In this document: piece by piece, positions 1 to 12,905 of the stretch
How positions within the stretch are numbered: the stretch's first letter is position 1
How the letters are laid out: the number at the start of each line of letters is the position of its first letter
Virus record (IMG/VR): IMGVR_UViG_3300047546_000406
Location: 1 to 21,376 of that record
Strand: one strand, 5' to 3'
DNA: 21,376 bases
Source: a virus
Made by a program: the position numbers and the translations under genes
Notes under the pieces: model-generated
What the model was told of the DNA's origin: nothing
Database searches by the model: none
The model's input: only the letters and a program-made list of their open reading frames with translations

Positions 1-303
1 CATAGAATTATTTATTGGATGCATCATGGATATTGTCCTGACATAATAGACCATATTGATAAAAATCCTGGAAATAATAAAATAGAAAATTTAAGAGGTG
101 TTTCACATAAAGCTAATATGTTAAACAGAAATCCAAATAAAGGTAAAACTCTACCAACAGGTATTTGTTGGGATAAAAGAAGAAAAAAATATAAAGTAAT
201 GATAGGTGGTATAAACATTGGTCGTTATGATGAATTATCAAAGGCAATAGAAATTGCAAATAATGTTAGAAATGAAATGCTAAATAAATTGATAGATGGA
301 TAA
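1..303 (+). CDS. HNH endonuclease with C-terminal AP2 domain, 5' truncated
   Basis: The frame is open from base 1, so the N-terminus lies outside the window; the first internal ATG at 19 is not a credible start because the HNH motif begins before it. Visible residues carry the HNH_3 pattern: HRIIYWMHHG, then DHIDKNPGNN, then NLRGVS and two later Asn. From about residue 54 an AP2-like DNA-binding fold follows (TGICWDKRRKKYKVMIGG, then GRYDELSKAIEIAN). This HNH-AP2 arrangement is the usual architecture of free-standing phage homing endonucleases, which nick or cut DNA and spread by homing. The stop overlaps the start of the methyltransferase by 8 bases. The gene is very AT-rich: 27% GC by hand count over bases 1-120, far below the packaging genes, as expected for an inserted selfish gene. 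Family call is firm; activity is inferred. Confidence 0.88.
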   Translation, partial: HRIIYWMHHGYCPDIIDHIDKNPGNNKIENLRGVSHKANMLNRNPNKGKTLPTGICWDKRRKKYKVMIGGINIGRYDELSKAIEIANNVRNEMLNKLIDG

Positions 304-868
304 TAAAAAAGATATAATAAAAAAATACAGCAATGGTATAAAAATTAGTGAAGAAGAATTTTTAAAAGCAGAACTTCAAATGGGAATAAGTTTTGACAAT
401 CCTGCTTTCACAAATTTAGCAGCAGAAGTAGCAAAGATTGTCAGACCATTAGGGCAGAGCATTCTTGATTATGGAGCAGGAACGGGGGTTTATGCTGATG
501 CCTATTACAAAGCAGGAATGGAAACCTATGTTTATGAAATCTTTGAGCCACACAGAAGATACATAAAAGAGAATGCTCCACATTTAACAATTATAGATGA
601 GCCAATTACTACCGATGTTCTTTCATGGATTGAGGTTGCAGAGCATATGACCGATGAGGAAATCAATCAGTTATTCAAAAAGATAAAGCCTACCTATATT
701 CTTTTCTCATCTACTCCTGAGCATACGGATTGGGATGCTGAGTGGGGGCATATCCATGTGCAGAGCCATGAAAAATGGGTAGAAGATTTATCAAAGCATG
801 GTTATCAATTAATTCAGAATCTATCACACCCAACACCCTGGGCAAAACTATTCAAATGCGAATTTTAG
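296..868 (+). CDS. Class I SAM-dependent methyltransferase
   Basis: A 190-residue protein with a clear SAM-binding motif I at residues 56-64 (ILDYGAGTG), an acidic residue at the end of strand 2 (E81), and a motif IV region around 107-118 (DVLSWIEVAEHM) that resembles small-molecule or sugar methyltransferases of the UbiE/Methyltransf_11-23 type more than DNA methylases. No DPPY or PC DNA-methylase motif is visible, so a direct DNA-base methylase is less likely. A C-terminal stretch HIHVQSHEKW is typical of family members acting near glycans. The start overlaps the HNH gene and the stop overlaps the next glycosyltransferase by 13 bases, so the two enzymes are probably made together. Substrate unknown: a sugar on modified DNA or a surface glycan are both possible. 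Confidence 0.82.
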   Translation: MDNKKDIIKKYSNGIKISEEEFLKAELQMGISFDNPAFTNLAAEVAKIVRPLGQSILDYGAGTGVYADAYYKAGMETYVYEIFEPHRRYIKENAPHLTIIDEPITTDVLSWIEVAEHMTDEEINQLFKKIKPTYILFSSTPEHTDWDAEWGHIHVQSHEKWVEDLSKHGYQLIQNLSHPTPWAKLFKCEF

Positions 869-1863
869 CAGTCGGTTCAAGACAATCAGGAGTATCTTAT
901 CATAGGCTTTTTATTCCTACTATGTATTTACCGAAGCAGTATGCAATGCTGACAGATACATTAACAGAGGAAGAACTTGAGAAAGGATATGACATAGTTT
1001 TTATCAATCGTTATGTTATAGGTCATGAGGCGAATAGCATTGACAACCTCCGCAAAAAATACGGCTTTAAGTTGATAGTAGATATCGATGATTACTGGTA
1101 TCTTGATGTTTGGCATATGCTTTATTCTACCTATCCTGTGCAGCGAATCATTGACCATATCAAGATTGCAGATGTAGTTACCTGCACAAATGAAAGGCTA
1201 TACAATGAAATCAAGCAGCTAAATAACAACGTACACATCCTTCCGAATGCTTTGCCTTACGGAGAGGACCAATTCACAACTGATAAAACAGAATCAGATT
1301 TAGTTCGTTTTATCTGGGCAGGTTCGGCTACCCATGAAAAAGATATGGCTATTCTAAAAAGACCGATGCAAAGAATATCAGCAGACCCTTTTATTAAAAG
1401 CAAGGCACATTTTCAGATATGCGGATATGAGCCTGATGATAAAATAAAAACCCCCATTTGGCACAGGATGATAGATAACTTTCTCTCAGGATTCAATGTG
1501 AATGGAAATATCAGAGAGGGATTGCCTGTGGACCTTTACATTAACTTCTACAAAGAAGCAGATGTCAGCCTTGTACCTTTGGTAGAATCAAGGTTCAACG
1601 GCATGAAATCCAATCTTAAAGTATTGGAGGCAGCGACTAAATCCTTGGCAGTTATCTGCTCAAATGTTCAACCCTATTCAGAATGTCCTCATGTGATAAA
1701 AGTAAACAGGCAGTCGGATTGGTTTGAATCTGTTAAAAAAGTTTGCAAAGATGCTATTTATAGAAAAGAGATGGGGGAAGCCAATCGTGAGTGGTGCTTG
1801 GAAAACTTTGATATCAGAAAAATAAATATAGAACGAAAACAAATCTTTGAATCATGCCTGTAA
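856..1863 (+). CDS. GT-B fold glycosyltransferase (GT4-like)
   Basis: I chose the ATG at 856, giving 335 residues, because MRILAVGSRQSGVSYHR is the standard first strand and loop of GT-B enzymes; an upstream in-frame ATG at 775 only adds translation of the methyltransferase gene. The N-terminal half has an acidic VDIDDYW motif (residues 75-81). The C-terminal Rossmann half starts near RFIWAGSATHEKD (151-163) and contains the donor-binding segment SRFNGMKSNLKVLEAA (245-260), with Glu residues in the position of the GT4 EX7E motif. It should transfer a sugar from a nucleotide donor. The acceptor is not given by the sequence; the neighbours (methyltransferase, HAD phosphatase, ParB-like, second glycosyltransferase) suggest phage DNA modification or decoration of the virion or host surface. 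Confidence 0.8.
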   Translation: MRILAVGSRQSGVSYHRLFIPTMYLPKQYAMLTDTLTEEELEKGYDIVFINRYVIGHEANSIDNLRKKYGFKLIVDIDDYWYLDVWHMLYSTYPVQRIIDHIKIADVVTCTNERLYNEIKQLNNNVHILPNALPYGEDQFTTDKTESDLVRFIWAGSATHEKDMAILKRPMQRISADPFIKSKAHFQICGYEPDDKIKTPIWHRMIDNFLSGFNVNGNIREGLPVDLYINFYKEADVSLVPLVESRFNGMKSNLKVLEAATKSLAVICSNVQPYSECPHVIKVNRQSDWFESVKKVCKDAIYRKEMGEANREWCLENFDIRKINIERKQIFESCL

Positions 1864-2267
1864 CTAAATGTGAATCAAATGGCAAGTGGAAAATCGGAAA
1901 TGGACCTTGCATCTACTCAACAAGAGAGAAAGCAGTTGAAGTATGGACAGCCATCCTTGCTTCCGGAAAGTATGCAGCAGATTCTAACAAGGTGTCTTAT
2001 GATTATGATGATACTTTAACAAAAAAAGAATACCAAGATAAAGCAAAGCAGGACATCGCAGATGGCAAGATAGTTTATATCATCTCTGCCAGGCATGAAG
2101 TATCAGGAATGAAAGCATTGGCTGAAGAATTAGGAATTCCAATGAGCAGGGTTTATGCCACAGGTTCAAATGGAGAAAAGATAAAAAAGGTAAAAGAACT
2201 TAACATTGGAAAACATTATGACAATAATCAGGATGTAATTCGTAAAATATCCGAATTAAATGCATAA
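1854..2267 (+). CDS. HAD-like phosphatase with N-terminal phage domain
   Basis: A 137-residue protein. Residues 47-130 look like a compact HAD hydrolase: motif I SYDYDDTLT with D50, D52 and T54; motif II IISAR with S78; Lys residues at 109-114 for motif III; motif IV as D123-x3-D127. There is little room for a cap, so it may act on a macromolecular or small phosphorylated substrate (5'-nucleotidase or polynucleotide phosphatase type). Residues 1-37 are a separate small domain (TKCESNGKWKIGNGPCIY, then an EKA...WTAILA helix) that I recall as a short module appended to various phage proteins. The start overlaps the glycosyltransferase by 10 bases. HAD enzymes are frequent partners in DNA-modification cassettes, but the substrate here is unknown. 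Confidence 0.72.
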   Translation: MPVTKCESNGKWKIGNGPCIYSTREKAVEVWTAILASGKYAADSNKVSYDYDDTLTKKEYQDKAKQDIADGKIVYIISARHEVSGMKALAEELGIPMSRVYATGSNGEKIKKVKELNIGKHYDNNQDVIRKISELNA

Positions 2268-2268
2268 A

Positions 2269-2278
2269 TTTAACAAAA
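2269..2278 (+). promoter_or_regulatory. TTTAACAA leader motif
   Basis: First of several TTTAACAA-type motifs in leaders (others at 12012, 13634, 14610, 14664). No Shine-Dalgarno sequence is near; A-rich leaders of this kind are usual translation starts in Bacteroidota. Confidence 0.4.
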
Positions 2279-2288
2279 CATCAAAACT

Positions 2289-2486
2289 ATGAATGCGGTA
2301 ATCAGATTCAACCTCAATGAAAAAGATGATAGGATGGCTCACATGAGATGCATCAAATCAACGGACATGGCTCTTGCTCTCTTTAAGATACAGGAACTTG
2401 CTATGGAGTATGAGCATATTAACATAGTCCAACTGAATGATATCTTTGAACAATACAACATCACATTGAATGAAATCATTTGCTAA
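2289..2486 (+). CDS. Small phage protein, unknown function
   Basis: 65 residues, acidic, predicted mostly helical after a short strand (AVIRFNLNEKDD). The layout of a strand ending in FNL, an acidic patch, then helices finishing in a region like FEQYNITLNEI resembles a small protein often seen beside replication or modification genes in Bacteroidota phages, though this copy is shorter than I remember the family. It is preceded by a typical A/T-rich leader containing TTTAACAAAA (about 2269-2278) and overlaps the next zinc-ribbon gene by 17 bases. No catalytic motif or membrane segment is visible. Being in a tight string of genes on the same strand supports that it is real. Confidence 0.55.
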   Translation: MNAVIRFNLNEKDDRMAHMRCIKSTDMALALFKIQELAMEYEHINIVQLNDIFEQYNITLNEIIC

Positions 2487-2607
2487 ATTTGTGGCAGCAT
2501 GGATTACCTGCCGAAACTGCCGAAAGAAATATACCATCACAATTCATAAACAACAAAACCAATCACTATGCCCACATTGCCAGAGTGTAAACCAGAGCAA
2601 AAAGTAA
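2470..2607 (+). CDS. 45-residue zinc-ribbon protein (Com-like)
   Basis: An ATG at 2470 opens a 45-codon frame ending in TAA at 2605-2607. The product has two zinc-binding knuckles, ITCRNCRKKYTI and LCPHCQSVNQ, each C-x2-C, separated by about 17 residues with a basic linker. That layout matches small phage zinc ribbons such as Com of phage Mu, which binds mRNA to allow translation of the DNA-modification gene mom; the match here is by layout only. It fills what would otherwise be an 81-base gap, overlapping the previous gene by 17 bases and the next by 40. The paired CxxC knuckles are very unlikely by chance in a random frame. Function unknown; an RNA- or DNA-binding regulator is the best guess. 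Confidence 0.7.
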   Translation: MKSFAKFVAAWITCRNCRKKYTITIHKQQNQSLCPHCQSVNQSKK

Positions 2608-2765
2608 CCTTCAAGGATTATTTATCTGATGTTTGGTTCATAATCGTTAGGACCTTTCAGATAGTTTATTTCATGACAATAGGAATGATAATTTTCGCTT
2701 TTGTCCTCATTGCAATAGAAGCAGCATTCACATCAAAAGAACTCATTGATATATTTAAAAAATGA
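2568..2765 (+). CDS. Small single-pass membrane protein
   Basis: 65 residues with a polar N-terminus (KPEQKVTFKDYLSD), one long hydrophobic segment at about residues 25-53 (around IVYFMTIGMIIFAFVLIAI) and a short charged C-terminus ending FKK. The start overlaps the zinc-ribbon gene by 40 bases and the stop TGA overlaps the ParB-like gene's ATG (ATGA), which suggests coupled translation. A single long membrane helix would fit a class III-like holin or a superinfection-exclusion protein, but nothing near it looks like a lysis gene, so I do not assign either. A later start would remove only the polar tail. Confidence 0.55.
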   Translation: MPTLPECKPEQKVTFKDYLSDVWFIIVRTFQIVYFMTIGMIIFAFVLIAIEAAFTSKELIDIFKK

Positions 2766-3337
2766 AAATAACAATAACCCCAATATCAAGCATCAAGCCT
2801 AATCCGAACAATCCGAGATTGATAAAGGATGACAAGTTCAAGAAACTTGTTAAATCAATACAGGAATTCCCTGAGATGCTAAACCTTCGCCCTATTGTCA
2901 TAAATGCTGATAATATAGTTCTTGGAGGAAATATGAGGCTCAAGGCTTGTAAAGAAGCAGGACTGAAGCAAGTGCCTGTCATACTCGCTGAAGATTTAAC
3001 AGAAGAACAACAGAAGCAATTTATCATTAAGGATAACGTAGGATTTGGAGAATGGGATTGGGAAGCCTTAGCAAATCAATGGGATAGTGAAGAACTAAGT
3101 GAATGGGGATTGGATATTCCTAATTGGGCTAATGGTCATGAATTGAATAATATGTCTGAAGATGAAATAGATACATCAGAAGAATTTGACCCAATTGGTC
3201 AAGCATCAGGATTGCAAAGAGTTGTTTTTATATTTGACGGCAAAGAAGAAGCAGAAAGTTATTTAAAAAGTTTAGGTGTAGAAGCAAAAAAATCTGGACA
3301 AGCATGGCAAGTAAATCTGACTACCCTATTTACATAA
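2762..3337 (+). CDS. ParB/sulfiredoxin-fold nuclease-like protein
   Basis: 191 residues. The first 80 match the ParB N-terminal domain: a start ITITPISSIKPNPNNPR, a helix KFKKLVKSIQEF, and the signature GGNMRLKACKEAG at 55-67, the NTP-binding/nuclease motif (GxxRxxA). After it comes a segment DNVGFGEWDWEALANQWD that often follows this domain in phage proteins linked to DNA methylases or terminases. There is no HTH or dimer domain of chromosomal ParB, so this is not a partition protein. The C-terminal 40 residues form a separate small fold, and base composition becomes more AT-rich from about 3120. It overlaps the next glycosyltransferase by 34 bases. Likely a DNA-binding or nicking factor for modification or packaging; inference only. 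Confidence 0.82.
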   Translation: MKITITPISSIKPNPNNPRLIKDDKFKKLVKSIQEFPEMLNLRPIVINADNIVLGGNMRLKACKEAGLKQVPVILAEDLTEEQQKQFIIKDNVGFGEWDWEALANQWDSEELSEWGLDIPNWANGHELNNMSEDEIDTSEEFDPIGQASGLQRVVFIFDGKEEAESYLKSLGVEAKKSGQAWQVNLTTLFT

Positions 3338-4077
3338 TATCAAAAGGTAGATATAAAAATCCTTTAACTGCTAAATTCTTTATTGATTATGGTATAGATT
3401 TTCAAGTAGTAGTTGAACCACAAGAAAAGATATACTATCAAAAAGTATTAGGGAAAAATAGAGTTACTGAATTACCATTTTCAAATCTTGGATTGGGTGG
3501 ATTTCCTGCAAGAAATTTCTGTTGGGAAGATTCAATAAGACAAGGTGCTAAAATGCATTGGATTTTTGATGACAACATCTCTGGATTTGCAAAATGGGTA
3601 AATTCAAAAAAAGTTTATATAAATGAAGGATATAAGCCATTGCTATATGTAGAATCATTTGCTCATAAAAACAATATAGATTTATCAGGATTTGAATATA
3701 GATATTTTGTTGCTAAACCACCAAAAACTCCATTTAAAGTAAACTGTCATGTATATTCAGCAATGCTGATAAAAAATGAATTGCCATATAGATGGAGGCT
3801 TAAATATAACGAGGATGTTGATTTATGCTTACAAATTTTGCATAACGGTGGCACAACTGCATCATGTACTTACTACATGACAAATAAAACATCAACTGCT
3901 GCAAAAATGAAGGGCGGTAATCAAGATGAATTGTATAAAGGGAATGACCCAAAAAAGAAATTGTTAAAAGCTAAAATGTTAGAAGCAGTATGGCCACAAT
4001 ATGCTAAAACTGTAATACGATTTAACAGATATCACCATTTAGTAGATTGGTCCGTTTTTAAAAGTAACAAAGGCTAA
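3304..4077 (+). CDS. TAGT-like glycosyltransferase (TET-associated family)
   Basis: 257 residues. Motifs in order: a first strand PIYIISKGRY (8-17), a strand-loop MHWIFDDNI (84-92) that supplies the acidic donor/metal site of GT-A enzymes, and YNEDVDLCLQIL (168-179) as the catalytic acidic loop. This set is what I recall for the TET/JBP-associated glycosyltransferases, which were predicted to add sugars to hydroxymethylated or otherwise modified bases in phage DNA. It sits between a ParB-like gene and terminase, a context known for that family. The gene is strikingly AT-rich (25% GC by hand count over 3361-3420 and 3601-3660), so it was probably acquired separately. No TET/JBP oxidase or base-hydroxymethylase is in the window; it might lie to the left. 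Confidence 0.72.
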   Translation: MASKSDYPIYIISKGRYKNPLTAKFFIDYGIDFQVVVEPQEKIYYQKVLGKNRVTELPFSNLGLGGFPARNFCWEDSIRQGAKMHWIFDDNISGFAKWVNSKKVYINEGYKPLLYVESFAHKNNIDLSGFEYRYFVAKPPKTPFKVNCHVYSAMLIKNELPYRWRLKYNEDVDLCLQILHNGGTTASCTYYMTNKTSTAAKMKGGNQDELYKGNDPKKKLLKAKMLEAVWPQYAKTVIRFNRYHHLVDWSVFKSNKG

Positions 4078-4080
4078 ACA

Positions 4081-4461
4081 ATGGCAAAAAGAATTAAACA
4101 ATCTCATGGTGGTGAATTAAAAGTCCTTCAAAAAGGAGAAACTGCTAATCCTAACGGCAGACCGAAGAAATATGTTACTTTGTTAAAGGAGCAAGGCTAC
4201 AAGTTAAGTGAGGTTAATGATACTATCCAGACAATCATGTCAATGGATATGGAGGAACTGAAGCAGGTATGGGATAACCCTAAAGCCACAATCTTAGAAA
4301 AGACCATAGCAAATGCTTTGATGACAAGCCTAAAGAAAGGAAGCCTTTATTCAATAGATACTTTGTTGAGCAGAGTGTATGGGCGTCCAAAAGAAACTCA
4401 GCAGGTAACAACCGATGGCAAAATAGAGGTAGTATTCACTCAGGGTAAGACAATTCTATGA
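4081..4461 (+). CDS. terS: Terminase small subunit (DUF5681-like start)
   Basis: 126 residues. The N-terminus is basic and contains GETANPNGRPKK, the short DUF5681-type motif often found at the start of small terminase-linked proteins. The remainder is helical (a region around SVNDTIQTIMSMDMEEL-like helices, then LEKTIANALMTSLKKGSLYS and IDTLLSRVYGRPKE), closely resembling proteins directly upstream of the large terminase in Bacteroidota phages. Small terminases bind the packaging site and feed DNA to the large subunit. The TGA stop overlaps the large-subunit ATG (ATGA), which supports coupled expression and the assignment. I see no other candidate for the small subunit. Confidence rests on position plus overall look rather than on a diagnostic catalytic motif. 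Confidence 0.75.
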   Translation: MAKRIKQSHGGELKVLQKGETANPNGRPKKYVTLLKEQGYKLSEVNDTIQTIMSMDMEELKQVWDNPKATILEKTIANALMTSLKKGSLYSIDTLLSRVYGRPKETQQVTTDGKIEVVFTQGKTIL

Positions 4462-5615
4462 TTCTTGAACTACCTGCTCCACATATCAACCAACAAGGAA
4501 TCCTTGACAATTCAAGCAGGTTTCGTGTTGTCATGTGCGGTAGGAGGTTCGGAAAATCAGAACTATCACAGGTAGAAATTATCACCAATGCAATCTTAGG
4601 CAGAGCAGTAGCATACATAACCCCAACTTATGCCCTTGCAAAAACCTTCTTTGATAAATTAGCCAAGGCAGTTCCTTTTGAATCCAATAGGTCAGATTTA
4701 ACAATTGCCTTTCCGAATAATGGCTCGGTCCAATTTTTTACAGGTGAGAGGCTTGATAATTTGCGAGGCAGGAAGTTCCATTTTGTTGTGATAGATGAGG
4801 CTTCATTCATTCCTAACTTAGAGGATGGATGGTTAAACTCAATCCGACCAACCCTAACCGATTACAAGGGAAGGGCATTATTCCTTTCAACTCCTAAGGG
4901 TAAGAATTACTTTTATTCCTTGTACCTCAAAGGTGTTAACGGAGAACTTGATTGGGCATCTTTCAAGTTCAGCACTTATGACAACCCGTACATTGATAAA
5001 ATGGAGGTAGATGATGCGAGAACACAACTTCCAGAGGCGGTATTTGAGCAGGAGTACATGGCGAACCCTGCCGAGAATGCTGCCAACCCTTTCGGCTCTG
5101 CTTTTATCAGACAATGCACTTTTCCTTTATCAACATATCCTGTGGTTTGTTACGGGATAGACCTTGCTAAATCTTTTGACTTTACTGCTATCATTGGTTT
5201 GGATAAGAACGGCTCAGTCGCATACTTTGACAGATTCCAAAAGGATTGGAGGCAGACAAAGCAGACAATCGTTAATTTAACAAAAGCACCCATCCTAATG
5301 GATAGTACAGGAGTGGGCGACCCTATCTTTGAGGACCTGCAAAGGGAAGGCTTAGAAGTTACAGGCTTTAAGTTCAGCCAAACATCCAAGCAGAATTTAA
5401 TGGTCGGTCTGGCTTCAGCCATTCAGCAAAGGAGGATTACTTTTCCTGAGGGGGCAATATCATCGGAATTAGAAATCTTTGAGTATCAGTACACAGCCAC
5501 AGGGGTAAGGTATTCTGCACCGCAAGGATTCCATGATGACTGCGTTATGGCTTTGGGTCTGGCATGGCAGCACCTTCAGAGTAATACAGGAACAGGCAGA
5601 TATTCATTTCTTTAG
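4458..5615 (+). CDS. terL: Terminase large subunit
   Basis: 385 residues with the full two-domain layout. ATPase: Walker A GRRFGKS (28-34), Walker B FVVIDEAS (109-116) with catalytic Glu, and coupling motif LSTPKG (143-148). RNase H-like nuclease: CYGIDLAK with D235, ILMDSTG with D282, and GFHDDCVMAL with D360/D361 for metal binding. It packages DNA into proheads through the portal and cuts the concatemer. At 385 residues it is on the short side of the family but all motifs are present, so it looks intact. It is more GC-rich than the accessory genes before it (27/60 and 33/60 in two hand-counted lines). A 60-base gap follows. Confidence 0.95.
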   Translation: MILELPAPHINQQGILDNSSRFRVVMCGRRFGKSELSQVEIITNAILGRAVAYITPTYALAKTFFDKLAKAVPFESNRSDLTIAFPNNGSVQFFTGERLDNLRGRKFHFVVIDEASFIPNLEDGWLNSIRPTLTDYKGRALFLSTPKGKNYFYSLYLKGVNGELDWASFKFSTYDNPYIDKMEVDDARTQLPEAVFEQEYMANPAENAANPFGSAFIRQCTFPLSTYPVVCYGIDLAKSFDFTAIIGLDKNGSVAYFDRFQKDWRQTKQTIVNLTKAPILMDSTGVGDPIFEDLQREGLEVTGFKFSQTSKQNLMVGLASAIQQRRITFPEGAISSELEIFEYQYTATGVRYSAPQGFHDDCVMALGLAWQHLQSNTGTGRYSFL

Positions 5616-5675
5616 AATATAACGGCGATATTTACCGCAGTAAGATAATTTATCAAACTTTATCTATTTACAATT
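5616..5675 (+). other. Intergenic gap after terL
   Basis: This 60-base spacer is one of few gaps in the window. It has a weak 6-bp inverted repeat (AGATAA ... TTATCT, about 5643-5666) without a following T-run, so I do not call a terminator. The leader just before the next start reads TCTATTTACAATT, similar to the TCTATTTAGTTACA leader before the gene at 15282. No good -33/-7 promoter was found by eye. Confidence 0.3.
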
Positions 5676-6344
5676 ATGACATGGAATGATGTAACAGTTT
5701 TTCAATGGCAGCAGTTAAATGAACTCTATGCCAATGCTGAAGGTCTGACCGATATGGACATATCCGTAAAGGCAGCAGCCATATTGACTAATCAGACAGA
5801 GCATGAGATTGACAGCCTACCCATAAGCCATTTAAAGCCTCTTCTTGCCTCTATTTCTTTTGTGCATGAGGAAATACAGCCTAAGGCTGTAAAGTGGCTT
5901 AAAATCAACGGGAATCGTTACAGGTGCCTATATGACATCAGGCAGATGCCTGTGGCTCGGTATATTGAATCTAAGCACTTCAGTTCCGATGTTAATGGCA
6001 ACCTGCACAGAATCATGGCTTGTATGGTTATGCCTCAGAAAAGGGGATTGCTCGGATGGAAAGATAAAAAGTATAATGCAGCGGACCATTCAGCCTATTC
6101 GGATGATATGTTATCTGCTCCGATAACTGCCGTTCTCGGTTCGGTTGTTTTTTTTTATCAAGTATACAGAGTTTGGATAAAGATTTCAAAGGATTATTTG
6201 ATAGCGGACATGATGAAGAAGGGAGTGAGCAGGTATCAGGCAGAAGCAGCACATCAGGCTTTATGCAGCATTTTGGATGGTTTTATCAAGCCTCACTGGT
6301 TGCCGAATATGAAAGAATCCCATTACAAGAGGCTTATGAGTTAA
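5676..6344 (+). CDS. Tail assembly chaperone, zero-frame product
   Basis: 222 residues starting TWNDVTVFQWQQLNELY, a pattern I associate with tail-assembly-chaperone-like proteins of Bacteroidota phages (an MTW...TVFQ start, a middle section NRYRCLYDIRQMPVARYIE, and VVFFYQVYRVWIKISKDYL). These proteins bind the tape measure and keep it soluble before the tube polymerises. Codons 159-160 are TTT TTT inside a nine-T run, and the -1 frame is open to 6439, so this is probably the short (gpG-like) product, with a longer fusion made by frameshifting. The zero-frame C-terminus after the T-run still looks like genuine protein, which argues against a simple sequencing error. No other chaperone candidate exists before the tape measure. 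Confidence 0.7.
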   Translation: MTWNDVTVFQWQQLNELYANAEGLTDMDISVKAAAILTNQTEHEIDSLPISHLKPLLASISFVHEEIQPKAVKWLKINGNRYRCLYDIRQMPVARYIESKHFSSDVNGNLHRIMACMVMPQKRGLLGWKDKKYNAADHSAYSDDMLSAPITAVLGSVVFFYQVYRVWIKISKDYLIADMMKKGVSRYQAEAAHQALCSILDGFIKPHWLPNMKESHYKRLMS

Positions 6345-6439
6345 ACACATTGAACTTCCTCAATGACCTTGCCTATCTAAAATCCAAAGCAGAGTATGAA
6401 AGCGAATTGATAAAACAAGCATATGGCAAAAAGCATTAA
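5676..6439 (+). CDS. Tail assembly chaperone -1 frameshift fusion (gpGT-like)
   Basis: If ribosomes slip one base back on the T run at 6148-6156, 160 zero-frame residues are followed by 94 from the -1 frame, giving 254 residues. The -1 frame is closed upstream by a TGA at 6104 and open from 6107, so any shift must lie between 6107 and 6344; the T run is the only canonical X XXY YYZ heptamer (T TTT TTT) I found there. The last part of the -1 frame (LVAEYERIPLQEAYELNTL onward, with NFLNDLAYLKSKAEYESEL) reads as a true helical protein, while the 45 residues after the slip look like linker. Such G/GT products are a near-universal feature of long-tailed phages. The alternative is an independent start at ATG 6263 (58 residues). 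Confidence 0.55.
6148..6156 (+). promoter_or_regulatory. Candidate -1 ribosomal slippery site (T9)
   Basis: Nine consecutive T. In the zero frame, codons TTT (6150-6152) and TTT (6153-6155) allow both tRNAs to re-pair after a one-base backward slip. The following codon becomes TTA in the -1 frame. I did not find an obvious strong stem-loop directly downstream by eye. Confidence 0.55.
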
Positions 6440-7121
6440 TCAGATACAGAACGAGATTGCAGCGAATGAAGCCCTGCTTAATGAACTGAGCAAACTTGAG
6501 GAAATAGGCACTACCAATCTACCTGCAACCGAAAGGACTATCATTGAGTATGCTGTTGAATTTATCAAAAAGGTACAAGAGAATCTAAAGGAACTGAACA
6601 AAATTGATACGGGCAGCCTGGTCAAAGATGTAGCTAAAGGTGAACTGATAAATCAATCAGGAGTTTATACCATTGAAATAGGTTATCCTGTATCTTCCAA
6701 ATCTGCTAAATACTATGACTTTGTAAATAAAGGTGTGCAGGGTTTTATCAGTAAATCACCAAACTCACCTTACAAGTTCCGCAATGCCATGCCTTCATCC
6801 AATGGTCCTATGGTATTGGCTCTGCAAAAGTGGATGAAAAGGAACGGAATGTTAAGCAGAAAAGAAACAGCATCTACAACTAAAAGTGGACTGCAAAGAA
6901 AACGTAAAGCCATATCCGAATTGGATTCATCCAGGCAGGGAGCATGGCTATTGGCAAGGAAAATCAAGAGCAGAGGTTTACCTAAAACAGGTTATTTTGA
7001 TGATGCCATTGATGAATACTTTGGCGATACATTCGGAGCAGCAATGGCTAAAGCGGTAGGTGCAGACATCAGGGTAGGTGTAAAGCAGGTCAATTCCCTA
7101 ATTAATGACAAGAACAAGTAA
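6423..7121 (+). CDS. HK97 gp10-like tail completion / head-tail joining protein
   Basis: 232 residues. After a helical N-terminus (1-60) there is a compact domain whose line YYDFVNKGVQGF (97-108) followed by SPYKFRNAMPSS matches the look of gp10-like proteins, where a strand carrying Y(x)F/V-x-G-V sits near the tube-joining surface. Later comes a Lys/Arg-rich stretch and a helix KIKSRGLPKTGYFDDAID, which also recurs in Bacteroidota phage homologues I recall. Such proteins close the connector or the proximal end of the tail tube. It overlaps the -1 chaperone frame by 17 bases and nearly abuts the next gene. The family call is by pattern, so other structural roles remain possible. Confidence 0.5.
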   Translation: MAKSINQIQNEIAANEALLNELSKLEEIGTTNLPATERTIIEYAVEFIKKVQENLKELNKIDTGSLVKDVAKGELINQSGVYTIEIGYPVSSKSAKYYDFVNKGVQGFISKSPNSPYKFRNAMPSSNGPMVLALQKWMKRNGMLSRKETASTTKSGLQRKRKAISELDSSRQGAWLLARKIKSRGLPKTGYFDDAIDEYFGDTFGAAMAKAVGADIRVGVKQVNSLINDKNK

Positions 7122-7123
7122 AA

Positions 7124-8305
7124 ATGGCAATAACAGTAAATAGCACTCCCGAATCCTATGCATCGGCACATGATGACCTTTGGTTCGTGGTAACATCCAC
7201 AAACGTGGCATCTACCAACTTCAAGTTTGTTTTTGATGTCTACATAAATTCCGTACAGGTAGCAAGGGTAAAGCAATATCCAGACCCTACATCCTCAAAA
7301 GGGTATTTCAATGCAGGGAACATTGTACGTAATTACTTAGCATCTTATTTCAAGCCTAACAGCACACAAACACTTTTCAGTTACGATGGCGATGATATCT
7401 ATGTGAACTATGAAATAAAATACGGAGAGGAATACGGGGGAACTACCTATACCAATTTAACAAATGCTACTTACAAAGCCTTTAACTTTTACAATCCACC
7501 ATTCCGCAATCCATCAACATCATATTTTAGCAATTTTGTAACCAAGTGGATAAGCAATAGGGATTTATCAAACATTGATTGTGCCTTCTCTGAAAAGATG
7601 TATATCGGTTGGATGAATGCATCGGGTACTACCACATCAATGACTGCAACGATACAAAAGTATTCTGAATCGGGTGCTACCTCAGGCAGTCCATCTACAG
7701 GCTCATCAGAAACAATCAGTAGCTTTGGGTTGCTTGATGTTTCCCCTGCTGCTATTAACACTTACCTTGGTTCATCTTTTATCAGTTCCTCTGATTATGC
7801 ATATGGTGTAAAGTTAAATTATTCATCTACCACATCCGATGAAATCAAGGTAAAGCTAAACTGCAACCCAAGATTCTCGCCCATATCATTGCATTTCCTT
7901 AACCAATTGGGAGGCTATGACACCTTCGTTTTCCGTTTGGTTAATAAGGAAAGCAGGGCAATGGATAAAAAAAGTTATCAAAGAATGAATTGGCAGTATG
8001 ATTCTGGAAGCACATCTATGCGGACCTATGACAGCTACAAGCGAATCAATCCAGGTATTGTAAACTTTGCTATTGACCAATCTGTAACATATAGGCTTAC
8101 ATCCGATTATATCAATCAAACTAACTACAATTGGATAAAGGAATTATTGGCTTCTCCTGAGGTTTACATGGAGCAGGGAGGTTACTATTATCCATTTAAC
8201 ATAACCTCAAGCCAATGGCAGCAGAAGCTAAGGGTATCGGATAAAATGTTTAATCTTGAGATTGAAGGTGAGGTAAATCAAAAAATCAATAGCCAATTCA
8301 GATGA
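7124..8305 (+). CDS. Tail structural protein, unknown role (393 aa)
   Basis: 393 residues, rich in Ser, Thr, Tyr and Asn with many predicted strands and no membrane segment or signal peptide. It starts MAITVNSTPESYASAHDDLW and has a YPDPTSSKGYFNAGNIVRNY loop region, both recurrent in proteins of this position in Bacteroidota phages. The composition and its place between the tail-completion protein and the next large tail protein suggest a virion beta-sandwich protein, perhaps a distal-tail or tail-tip component. The stop overlaps the next gene (ATGA), so they are probably made as a pair. No enzymatic motif was seen. I cannot name the family. Confidence 0.6.
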   Translation: MAITVNSTPESYASAHDDLWFVVTSTNVASTNFKFVFDVYINSVQVARVKQYPDPTSSKGYFNAGNIVRNYLASYFKPNSTQTLFSYDGDDIYVNYEIKYGEEYGGTTYTNLTNATYKAFNFYNPPFRNPSTSYFSNFVTKWISNRDLSNIDCAFSEKMYIGWMNASGTTTSMTATIQKYSESGATSGSPSTGSSETISSFGLLDVSPAAINTYLGSSFISSSDYAYGVKLNYSSTTSDEIKVKLNCNPRFSPISLHFLNQLGGYDTFVFRLVNKESRAMDKKSYQRMNWQYDSGSTSMRTYDSYKRINPGIVNFAIDQSVTYRLTSDYINQTNYNWIKELLASPEVYMEQGGYYYPFNITSSQWQQKLRVSDKMFNLEIEGEVNQKINSQFR

Positions 8306-12020: not shown

Positions 12021-12905
12021 ATGGAAAAGAAATTACCTATTTTCAATTTAGAGATTACAAACGAAGATGACAGCGATGTAGAGGTTGACTTTGTGGCATT
12101 GGTTGACCGCCCTGCCATTGAGAGGCAGTTCCTTGCCTTCGCTGAAGATTCATATAATGATTACCCAGAGGCAGCGGTAAATAATGCTAAAAGAGCATTG
12201 AAATGGGTAGAAGAACATGGTTGGGGAGATTGCGGAGAATCAACAGGTAAAATAAGAGCAAATCAAATAGCCAACAGGGAAAACCTGACAAGAGATACCA
12301 TTGCAAGGATTAGCGGTTTCCGTAGGCATCAGCAGAATAAAGATGTGCCATACTCTGAAGGGTGTGGTGGTCTTATGTGGGATGCGTGGGGCGGTGATGC
12401 CATGATTGATTGGGCAGAACGTAAACTTAGGCAGATTGAAAAGCAATCCTTTGCCATTCAAGATGAGGAAGAAAAGATTATATCAGGTCCTTTGATGTTA
12501 GCAGATACTCCTATTTACAGGAATGACCAAAATGGTGAATACTATGTTCAATTCACAAAGGACACCATTAAGCAGATAGCACAGAAATTTTTCCGCAAAG
12601 GTTATCATCAAAATGTTAATTTGATGCATGACAGCGGAAGCATTGTTAATGGACTTACCATGTTTGAATCTTGGATAAGTGATGAAAAGCGTGGTATCAA
12701 GCCAATGTTAGGTTTTGAAAATGTACCTGATGGGTCATGGTTCGGTTCTTTTAAGGTGGAGAATGATGACGTCTGGAAACTGATAAAGGAGGGAAAAGTT
12801 AAAGGATTTTCCGTTGAAGGGGTTTTTAACTACCGAAAAACAGGCGATAAGAAATATGAAGCGATGTGGCAGGAGATAGTTGCCATCTTGGAGCAGGTCC
12901 GCTAA
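12021..12905 (+). CDS. XkdF-like prohead protease with inserted domain
   Basis: 294 residues. The frame start VDFVALVDRPAIERQFLAF (22-40) and the later block IISGPLMLADTPIYRND, NLMHDSGSIVNGLTMFESW and VKGFSVEGVFNYRK (about 153-272) are the XkdF-like phage serine protease; H203 and S264 are my candidates for the catalytic pair. These proteases mature the capsid. Between the two blocks, residues about 46-140 form an extra domain (YPEAAVNNAKRALKWVEEHG, WGDCGESTGKIRANQIA, SDVPYSEGCGGLMWDAWGG-like) that also occurs attached to other phage proteins. The flanking XkdF parts read straight across it, so it looks like a domain insertion. The leader TTTAACAAT abuts the ATG. A clear terminator follows. 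Confidence 0.8.
   Translation: MEKKLPIFNLEITNEDDSDVEVDFVALVDRPAIERQFLAFAEDSYNDYPEAAVNNAKRALKWVEEHGWGDCGESTGKIRANQIANRENLTRDTIARISGFRRHQQNKDVPYSEGCGGLMWDAWGGDAMIDWAERKLRQIEKQSFAIQDEEEKIISGPLMLADTPIYRNDQNGEYYVQFTKDTIKQIAQKFFRKGYHQNVNLMHDSGSIVNGLTMFESWISDEKRGIKPMLGFENVPDGSWFGSFKVENDDVWKLIKEGKVKGFSVEGVFNYRKTGDKKYEAMWQEIVAILEQVR

Follow-up and report, generated by a model that had tools for sequence, protein, structure and literature searches.

In phage T6, the TAGT enzyme adds glucose onto already glucosylated hydroxymethylcytosine (hmC), and solitary TAGTs, found without an alpha- or beta-glycosyltransferase (alpha-GT or beta-GT), occur in 288 of 753 phage genomes, where novel transferases are suspected (both points from PMC13216743). 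TAGT, ParB-methylase fusions, Mom, ABC-GNAT proteins, and TET cassettes are all kinds that are already known, and proteins combining an ABC ATPase with GNAT were previously predicted to be DNA-base modifiers (PMC7824862). Here, we describe a TAGT gene encoded between a ParB-like gene and the terminase genes of a virus, on a linear fragment of 21,376 bases from IMG/VR (record IMGVR_UViG_3300047546_000406; the whole stretch is hereafter the window). We consider it probable, at roughly three chances in four, that the ParB-like protein and the TAGT constitute a two-part DNA-modification enzyme, housed in an exchangeable slot ahead of terS and terL, which glycosylates the phage DNA and thereby counters restriction.

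From left to right, the window contains the end of an HNH gene, genes for a Methyltransf_23 protein, a GT-B glycosyltransferase, and a HAD-like protein, short open reading frames (ORFs), and then ParB, TAGT, terS, and terL; all window genes given with coordinates below are on the + strand. An initial annotation, made from the sequence alone, had placed methyltransferase, GT-B, ParB-like, and TAGT genes ahead of terS, and Pfam and PHROG profile matches bear this out. The TAGT product (3304-4077) matches profile PF20691 (E 9.5e-31) with 107.8 bits against a cut-off of 27.5, covering positions 1-205 of the 205 in the model, and also matches PHROG 842 (E 7.8e-31), so the TAGT-like assignment holds well above threshold. 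Its AlphaFold2 model (predicted local distance difference test, pLDDT, 89.2; predicted template modeling score, pTM, 0.88) matches viral TAGTs in a Foldseek search of a viral library (E down to 1.9e-21, template modeling score up to 0.85), including one phage TAGT that bears the name beta-glucosyl-HMC-alpha-glucosyltransferase. The possibility raised at the outset, that both glycosyltransferases belong to surface-glycan families with no relation to TAGT, does not apply to this one, whose model matches phage TAGTs. A PDB sequence search with the TAGT profile gave chance-level matches only, and a PDB fold search returned weak GT-A relatives, e.g. LARGE1, which do not settle the donor or the acceptor.

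The catalytic residues D90 and D171 are common to all TAGT sets, including T6 and the TET-linked enzymes, while D89 is present in nearly all and G204 is shared. The T6 TAGT scores 28.9 bits against the profile of the TAGT1 class and retains the DD and ED residues. In our TAGT tree, which was built quickly and contains some long branches, the window's enzyme falls in a TET-free TAGT1 clade, most members of which carry DDN, not DDD, together with W164, R165, Y168, N169, K195, T198, Y211, R242, and H245. TET-linked TAGTs form separate clades with DDD where the TET-free clade has DDN, and none of the 82 solo TAGT1 slot sequences in the TET-free clade adjoins a recognised TET. Two loci that had been labelled TAGT1 plus TET (L197, L233) group with the TET-linked clade, and the label was wrong. 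We infer DNA as the substrate of the window's enzyme, which is probably a DNA glycosyltransferase.

The ParB gene (2762-3337; ParB_N PF02195, E 4.3e-8) lies directly upstream, and the start of the TAGT gene overlaps it by 34 nt. Its core (2762-3125) is the nucleoside triphosphate-binding N-domain of a Spo0J-type ParB: query residues 6-93 match the Spo0J N-domain (PDB 1vz0, E 2.7e-6), with no PDB match beyond that domain and no helix-turn-helix seen. This pairing is widespread. A TAGT-seeded scan yielded 80 viral loci encoding TAGT relatives; 70 of them have enough sequence upstream of the TAGT, and in 69 of these a ParB gene is found no more than two genes away on that side. Where ParB and TAGT are direct neighbors, their genes overlap in 55 of 59 cases, and a terminase gene (terS or terL) follows no more than five genes downstream of the TAGT in 52 of 60. 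On a bacterial contig (L345), ParB, a linking tail domain, and TAGT form a single 673-aa ORF (ParB_N E 5.1e-5, slightly below the Pfam cut-off; TAGT E 1.2e-42). The proposed pairing of TAGT with a ParB-like protein is therefore beyond chance, and the pair is in all likelihood a DNA-modification unit. Prophages of cultured Chryseobacterium (L354, L356), Erwinia (L364), and Pantoea (L368) encode a ParB with a WxxMPxF tail, TAGT, and terminase, and the PMBT4 gene labelled as a methylase is ParB plus TAGT again.

The sister phage L111 shares ~89-90% DNA identity with the window at 308-1974, 2250-3125, and 4131-8225. The main difference is the segment 3126-4130, which comprises the ParB C-terminal tail (3126-3337), TAGT, and the start of terS, and in whose place L111 has an N6/N4 DNA-methyltransferase domain; the ParB core, the constant head of the slot, keeps ~90% nucleotide identity up to 3125. 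The exchanged segment has a G+C content of 0.31, versus 0.376 and 0.42 in its flanks. It includes the first ~17 codons of the terS-like small terminase (4081-4461; DUF5681, E 2.8e-6), the remainder of which is the right-hand border of the slot, followed by the large terminase terL (4458-5615; Terminase_6N, E 5.2e-9; PHROG 2, E 6.7e-44). A scan seeded with ParB also brought up a second sister, L110, in which an N6/N4 methylase (PF01555, E 1.9e-13) forms one protein with this ParB core. A DNA methylase domain behind the ParB core is present in both sisters and absent in the window, where the gene order is ParB core, partner-specific tail, enzyme, terS, and terL, with docking of the enzyme on the tail predicted.

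To place this exchange in context, we compiled 233 distinct ParBs with a recognised partner from ParB scans of related contigs. The position between ParB and terS is filled by N6/N4 methylases (72), TAGT1 (70), TET sets (46, including TET with TAGT or with an FkbM methyltransferase), and Mom (15), and more rarely by TAGT2 (13), ABC-GNAT (10), C5 methylases (5), and DpdA-like proteins (2). Pfam matches of slot representatives agree with these names for Mom (PF25680, E 2.3e-54), Tet_JBP (E 8.6e-12), and DNA_methylase (E 9.7e-48), and the ABC-GNAT representative matches ABC_tran plus an acetyltransferase. The DpdA-like representative lacks a Pfam match and owes its name to sequence resemblance alone; a PTPS (QueD-like) protein is encoded beside it. 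The tree of ParB cores requires a minimum of 67 partner changes, compared with ~130 when labels are shuffled, and near-identical cores carry different enzymes at 94% (TAGT1 and N6/N4 methylase) to 100% identity (Mom and N6/N4 methylase). Judged by gene content, this is a slot for exchangeable DNA-modification enzymes.

Several individual slots stand out. The layout of ParB, enzyme, and terminase is found in two cultured phages, Leptospira phage LE3 with ABC-GNAT (L394, 3926-7752) and Bacteroides phage BS-TP3 with a 473-aa methyltransferase (L395, 3947-7819). DpdA-like proteins occupy the ParB slot in L121 (5869-7150, with a QueD/PTPS homologue) and L307, and the former suggests 7-deazaguanine DNA. 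An FkbM-type methyltransferase followed by TET is found in 22 loci (e.g. L122, L192, L193, L206-L209), and other ParB slots hold a glycosyltransferase plus TET (L155, L161); these two combinations perhaps yield methylated or glycosylated hydroxymethyl bases. On one 44 kb contig, two sites (L263 and L264) give the same TAGT2-class ParB match, either by duplication or as an assembly artefact.

The part of ParB that changes with the enzyme is its tail. Among 159 unfused ParBs, the nearest tail shares the enzyme class in 156, while the nearest core does so in 118; when pairs are restricted to core identity of at most 80%, the class agrees by tail in 154 and by core in 68. For ParB pairs with core identity of 80% or more, tail similarity averages 0.69 if the partner is the same and 0.077 if it differs. 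Across 243 pairs of ParBs with different partners, the point where similarity stops has its quartiles at 27-30 residues, counted from the start of the GFGEWD motif. Tails from marine TAGT1 phages carry a WxGMPxF motif, which is present in 28 of 70 TAGT1-class ParBs and in 0 of 163 others. These marine-type tails share homology with a domain at the N-terminus of TAGTs from phages of Aeromonas, Vibrio, Pectobacterium, and Tenacibaculum (with full marine-type tails, hhalign gives 97.8%, E 1e-12), whereas other tail classes reach at most 1.6%; in Aeromonas and Vibrio phages, a tail-related domain is thus fused onto the TAGT itself. The window's own tail lacks the WxGMPxF motif and is tied to the fused-TAGT domain only via the alignment of all TAGT1 tails (hhalign 89%, in a first comparison with tails cut short). 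We favor the prediction that the tail is a partner-specific adaptor on which TAGT docks, because fusions exist and because the junction falls inside the ParB gene.

In the mechanism we propose, the constant ParB core would attach to phage DNA or move along it while the C-terminal tail of ParB docks the TAGT, which would move a sugar from a nucleoside diphosphate (NDP)-sugar to the bases of phage DNA before or during packaging. The sugar-bearing DNA would then be packaged and be protected against host restriction. Recombination between the homologous ParB and terS borders would exchange tail and enzyme together, and swaps among N6/N4 or C5 methylases, Mom, ABC-GNAT, DpdA-like proteins, and TET sets would change the chemistry and so evade different restriction systems. 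Such a design, a fixed ParB head plus interchangeable pairs of tail and enzyme, would account for the way in which small phages alter their DNA chemistry in a single recombination step. Several points weigh against this mechanism. The window is only a 21 kb fragment. The relatives described below revealed no enzyme that would supply a hydroxyl acceptor, which leaves the reaction on DNA unexplained. The tail and enzyme genes adjoin, and their match may reflect plain co-inheritance rather than docking, an objection that is weakened because the junction falls inside ParB and not at the ParB stop codon. Finally, the ParB-methylase Bce_0392 has nicking activity (PMC5512222), and the role of the ParB core may thus be a different one from enzyme targeting.

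Since the window's left part is missing, the negatives on TET and hydroxymethylase come from relatives plus the visible stretch. Profile searches of 36 records with a TAGT found neither Tet_JBP nor the thymidylate-synthase family. Terminal repeats mark two relatives as complete (G013, 32,861 bp with a 123-bp repeat; G026, 34,295 bp with a 77-bp repeat), and Pfam scans of 43 ORFs of the former and 40 of the latter detected no TET, thymidylate-synthase family, alpha-GT, or beta-GT; in these scanned ORFs, which also include sugar-related genes, TAGT is the sole DNA-modification enzyme recognised. Neither Tet_JBP nor the thymidylate-synthase family is present in Vibrio phages 1.076.O and 1.124.O, whose records are labelled as partial genomes. 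Lactobacillus phages c5, phiLdb, and jlb1 encode ParB-TAGT ahead of the terminase and showed neither Tet_JBP nor Thymidylat_synt, in a run in which the TET search had no positive control; the same search does detect TET in Nonlabens phage P12024L and in the slot TETs. We left phages Aeh1, 65, PTm1, POP12, and Kuja out of this argument, as thymidylate synthase and hydroxymethylase are indistinguishable in their matches. When the TAGT records were searched for C5 methylases, the only matches were one in L081, a record of 89 kb, and a weak one in Vibrio phage 1.124.O. The initial annotation had proposed a base-oxidation or hydroxymethylation enzyme outside the window, or else none, which would be new: the 36 records and the two complete relatives speak against the former, and the latter is the better of the two branches, though unproved. 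As separate observations, the TAGT of phiLdb is split across two annotated ORFs and is possibly inactive (L391, 848-1713), and Vibrio phage Kuja has two tandem TAGT genes adjoining a DNA end protector gene (L188, 2677-5365).

The glycosylation target is perhaps a hydroxylated base made elsewhere, or perhaps an unaltered canonical base, and the latter case would amount to new chemistry. That the TAGT acts on a base hydroxylated by an unrecognised enzyme or by the host is a serious possibility, though less likely than not: the T6 TAGT needs glucosyl-hmC, an oxidised base is presumably required by TET-linked TAGTs, the same slot elsewhere holds TAGTs that have TET as a neighbor (L161, L201, L220, L229), and, to our knowledge, all characterised DNA glycosyltransferases are O-linked to a hydroxylated base. 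Absence by profile search leaves room for a hydroxylase of an unrecognised kind; however, such an enzyme would have to be missed alike in the 36 records, the scanned ORFs of both complete relatives, and the three Lactobacillus phages, and the TET-linked TAGTs belong to separate clades with DDD rather than DDN. Slightly less likely still is that TAGT1 modifies a canonical base, most plausibly at an exocyclic amine (N6 of A or N4 of C), like the slot's N6/N4 methylases and Mom. One enzyme here stands in for those enzymes on the same ParB core, the TET-free clade has residues of its own (W164, R165, Y168, N169, K195, R242, H245), and complete genomes contain no recognised acceptor-making enzyme. 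Yet slot equivalence does not determine the acceptor atom, and we know of no N-linked sugar on a DNA base. A fuller version, in which a single ParB-guided glycosyltransferase puts the sugar directly on an unmodified base, e.g. at an exocyclic amine, in one step with no base hydroxylation and as one option in a reloadable socket, we regard as doubtful; if true, direct sugar transfer to a canonical base would be chemistry not yet described. As for the donor, marine relatives encode an NDP-sugar-type NAD-dependent epimerase/dehydratase directly after TAGT (PF01370, E 7e-33 and 1.5e-33), which fits a tailored NDP-sugar; a further glycosyltransferase, or an FkbM methyltransferase, is encoded in some of the slots.

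The genes upstream of ParB are neighbors of the ParB-TAGT module, not members of it. These encode the Methyltransf_23 protein (296-868; E 4.1e-9) and the GT-B glycosyltransferase (856-1863; PHROG 7162, E 4.3e-62; Pfam Glyco_trans_1_4 barely at cut-off), whose start at 856 (MRILAVGSRQSG) was fixed from the L110 and L111 homologues. Next is a small protein (1854-2267) whose HAD reading comes from motifs only (YDYDDTL, DxDxT-like). The initial annotation called it a HAD-like phosphatase: the DxDxT-like motif is indeed present, but there is no Pfam HAD match. The L111 homologue is 61 aa long and lacks the HAD-like part, so 1974-2250 is an insertion in the window. Its counterpart in G013 is joined to a segment that resembles positions 12021-12905 of the window. 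The 45-aa zinc-ribbon ORF (2470-2607; CxxC...CPHC) is kept in L111 (E 3.6e-34), as are neighboring small ORFs; the zinc ribbon is real, but its Pfam matches are generic zinc ribbons below cut-off with no Com family among them, and we reject its identity as a Mu Com regulator.

All of these genes had been grouped with TAGT in one cassette, and in its strongest form that proposal has the methyltransferase, GT-B, HAD phosphatase, Com-like regulator, ParB, and TAGT jointly building and decorating one modified base. The genes are packed and co-directional, and G013 likewise has acyltransferase-like, GT-A-like, and GT-B genes before ParB-TAGT. Nevertheless, methyltransferase and GT-B homologues also lie upstream of ParB in phages with a methylase, Mom, ABC-GNAT, or DpdA-like slot, and GT-B is no commoner with TAGT (8 of 41 loci) than without (14 of 29 methylase-fusion loci). 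We therefore reject a single pathway spanning 296-4077, which we consider highly improbable. By analogy, the upstream genes may instead serve virion-protein or surface-glycan decoration: mycobacteriophages of cluster O have a group of O-methyltransferase and glycosyltransferase genes for which a role in capsid modification was proposed (PMC4351075). The complete relative G013 has a second sugar-related cluster, with hexapeptide acyltransferase-like and GT-A-like genes beside GT-B (L085, 7628-8694). The cluster O proposal, and the position of TAGT ahead of the terminase and head genes, also lend something to the idea that TAGT itself glycosylates a protein (terminase, capsid, or ParB itself). 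We find this improbable, since TAGT is swapped for enzymes that act, or are predicted to act, on DNA, is found fused to ParB, and is kin to the T6 TAGT.

In the open-access papers searched, we found no account of a general ParB slot, of partner-specific tails, or of a ParB-TAGT unit. If our reading of the slot is right, the interval between ParB and terS is a place to look for new DNA-modification enzymes, and the TET-free TAGTs are a concrete lead to a DNA sugar of unknown kind in phages that are already cultured (Lactobacillus c5 and jlb1, Vibrio 1.124.O).

Among described systems, the T6 TAGT (beta-glucosyl-HMC-alpha-glucosyltransferase) resembles the window's enzyme in family (PF20691), GT-A fold, and DD and ED residues. 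In T6, however, hmC comes from a hydroxymethylase of the thymidylate-synthase family and is first glucosylated by an alpha-GT, while neither TET nor that family was found in the window's relatives, and a ParB partner is present. The solitary TAGTs counted in PMC13216743 are not described in the available portion of that paper in terms of ParB, a terminase slot, or enzyme exchange. The TET-TAGT cassette of P12024L (gp26-gp27-gp28) likewise combines TAGT with a nearby methyltransferase in a phage of ~35 kb with a Bacteroidota host, but its TAGT is 29% identical to the window's, has TET directly upstream, and does not lie ahead of the terminase. Mom (PF25680) of the Mu com-mom system fills the same slot in sister phages, whereas the window has no Mom and its zinc ribbon falls outside the Com family. 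In the terminase-side variable region of a cryoconite Mu-like phage (PMC7468147), ParB is present and variants exchange DNA methylases with an acetyltransferase; the part of that paper available to us describes no TAGT, slot census, or tail-enzyme match. The ParB-methylase fusions (PF02195 plus PF01555; Bce_0392 type, PMC5512222; PHROG 498) have the same ParB core, up to 94% identical, at the same locus, and in them an enzyme domain stands where the window has a tail and a separate TAGT gene.

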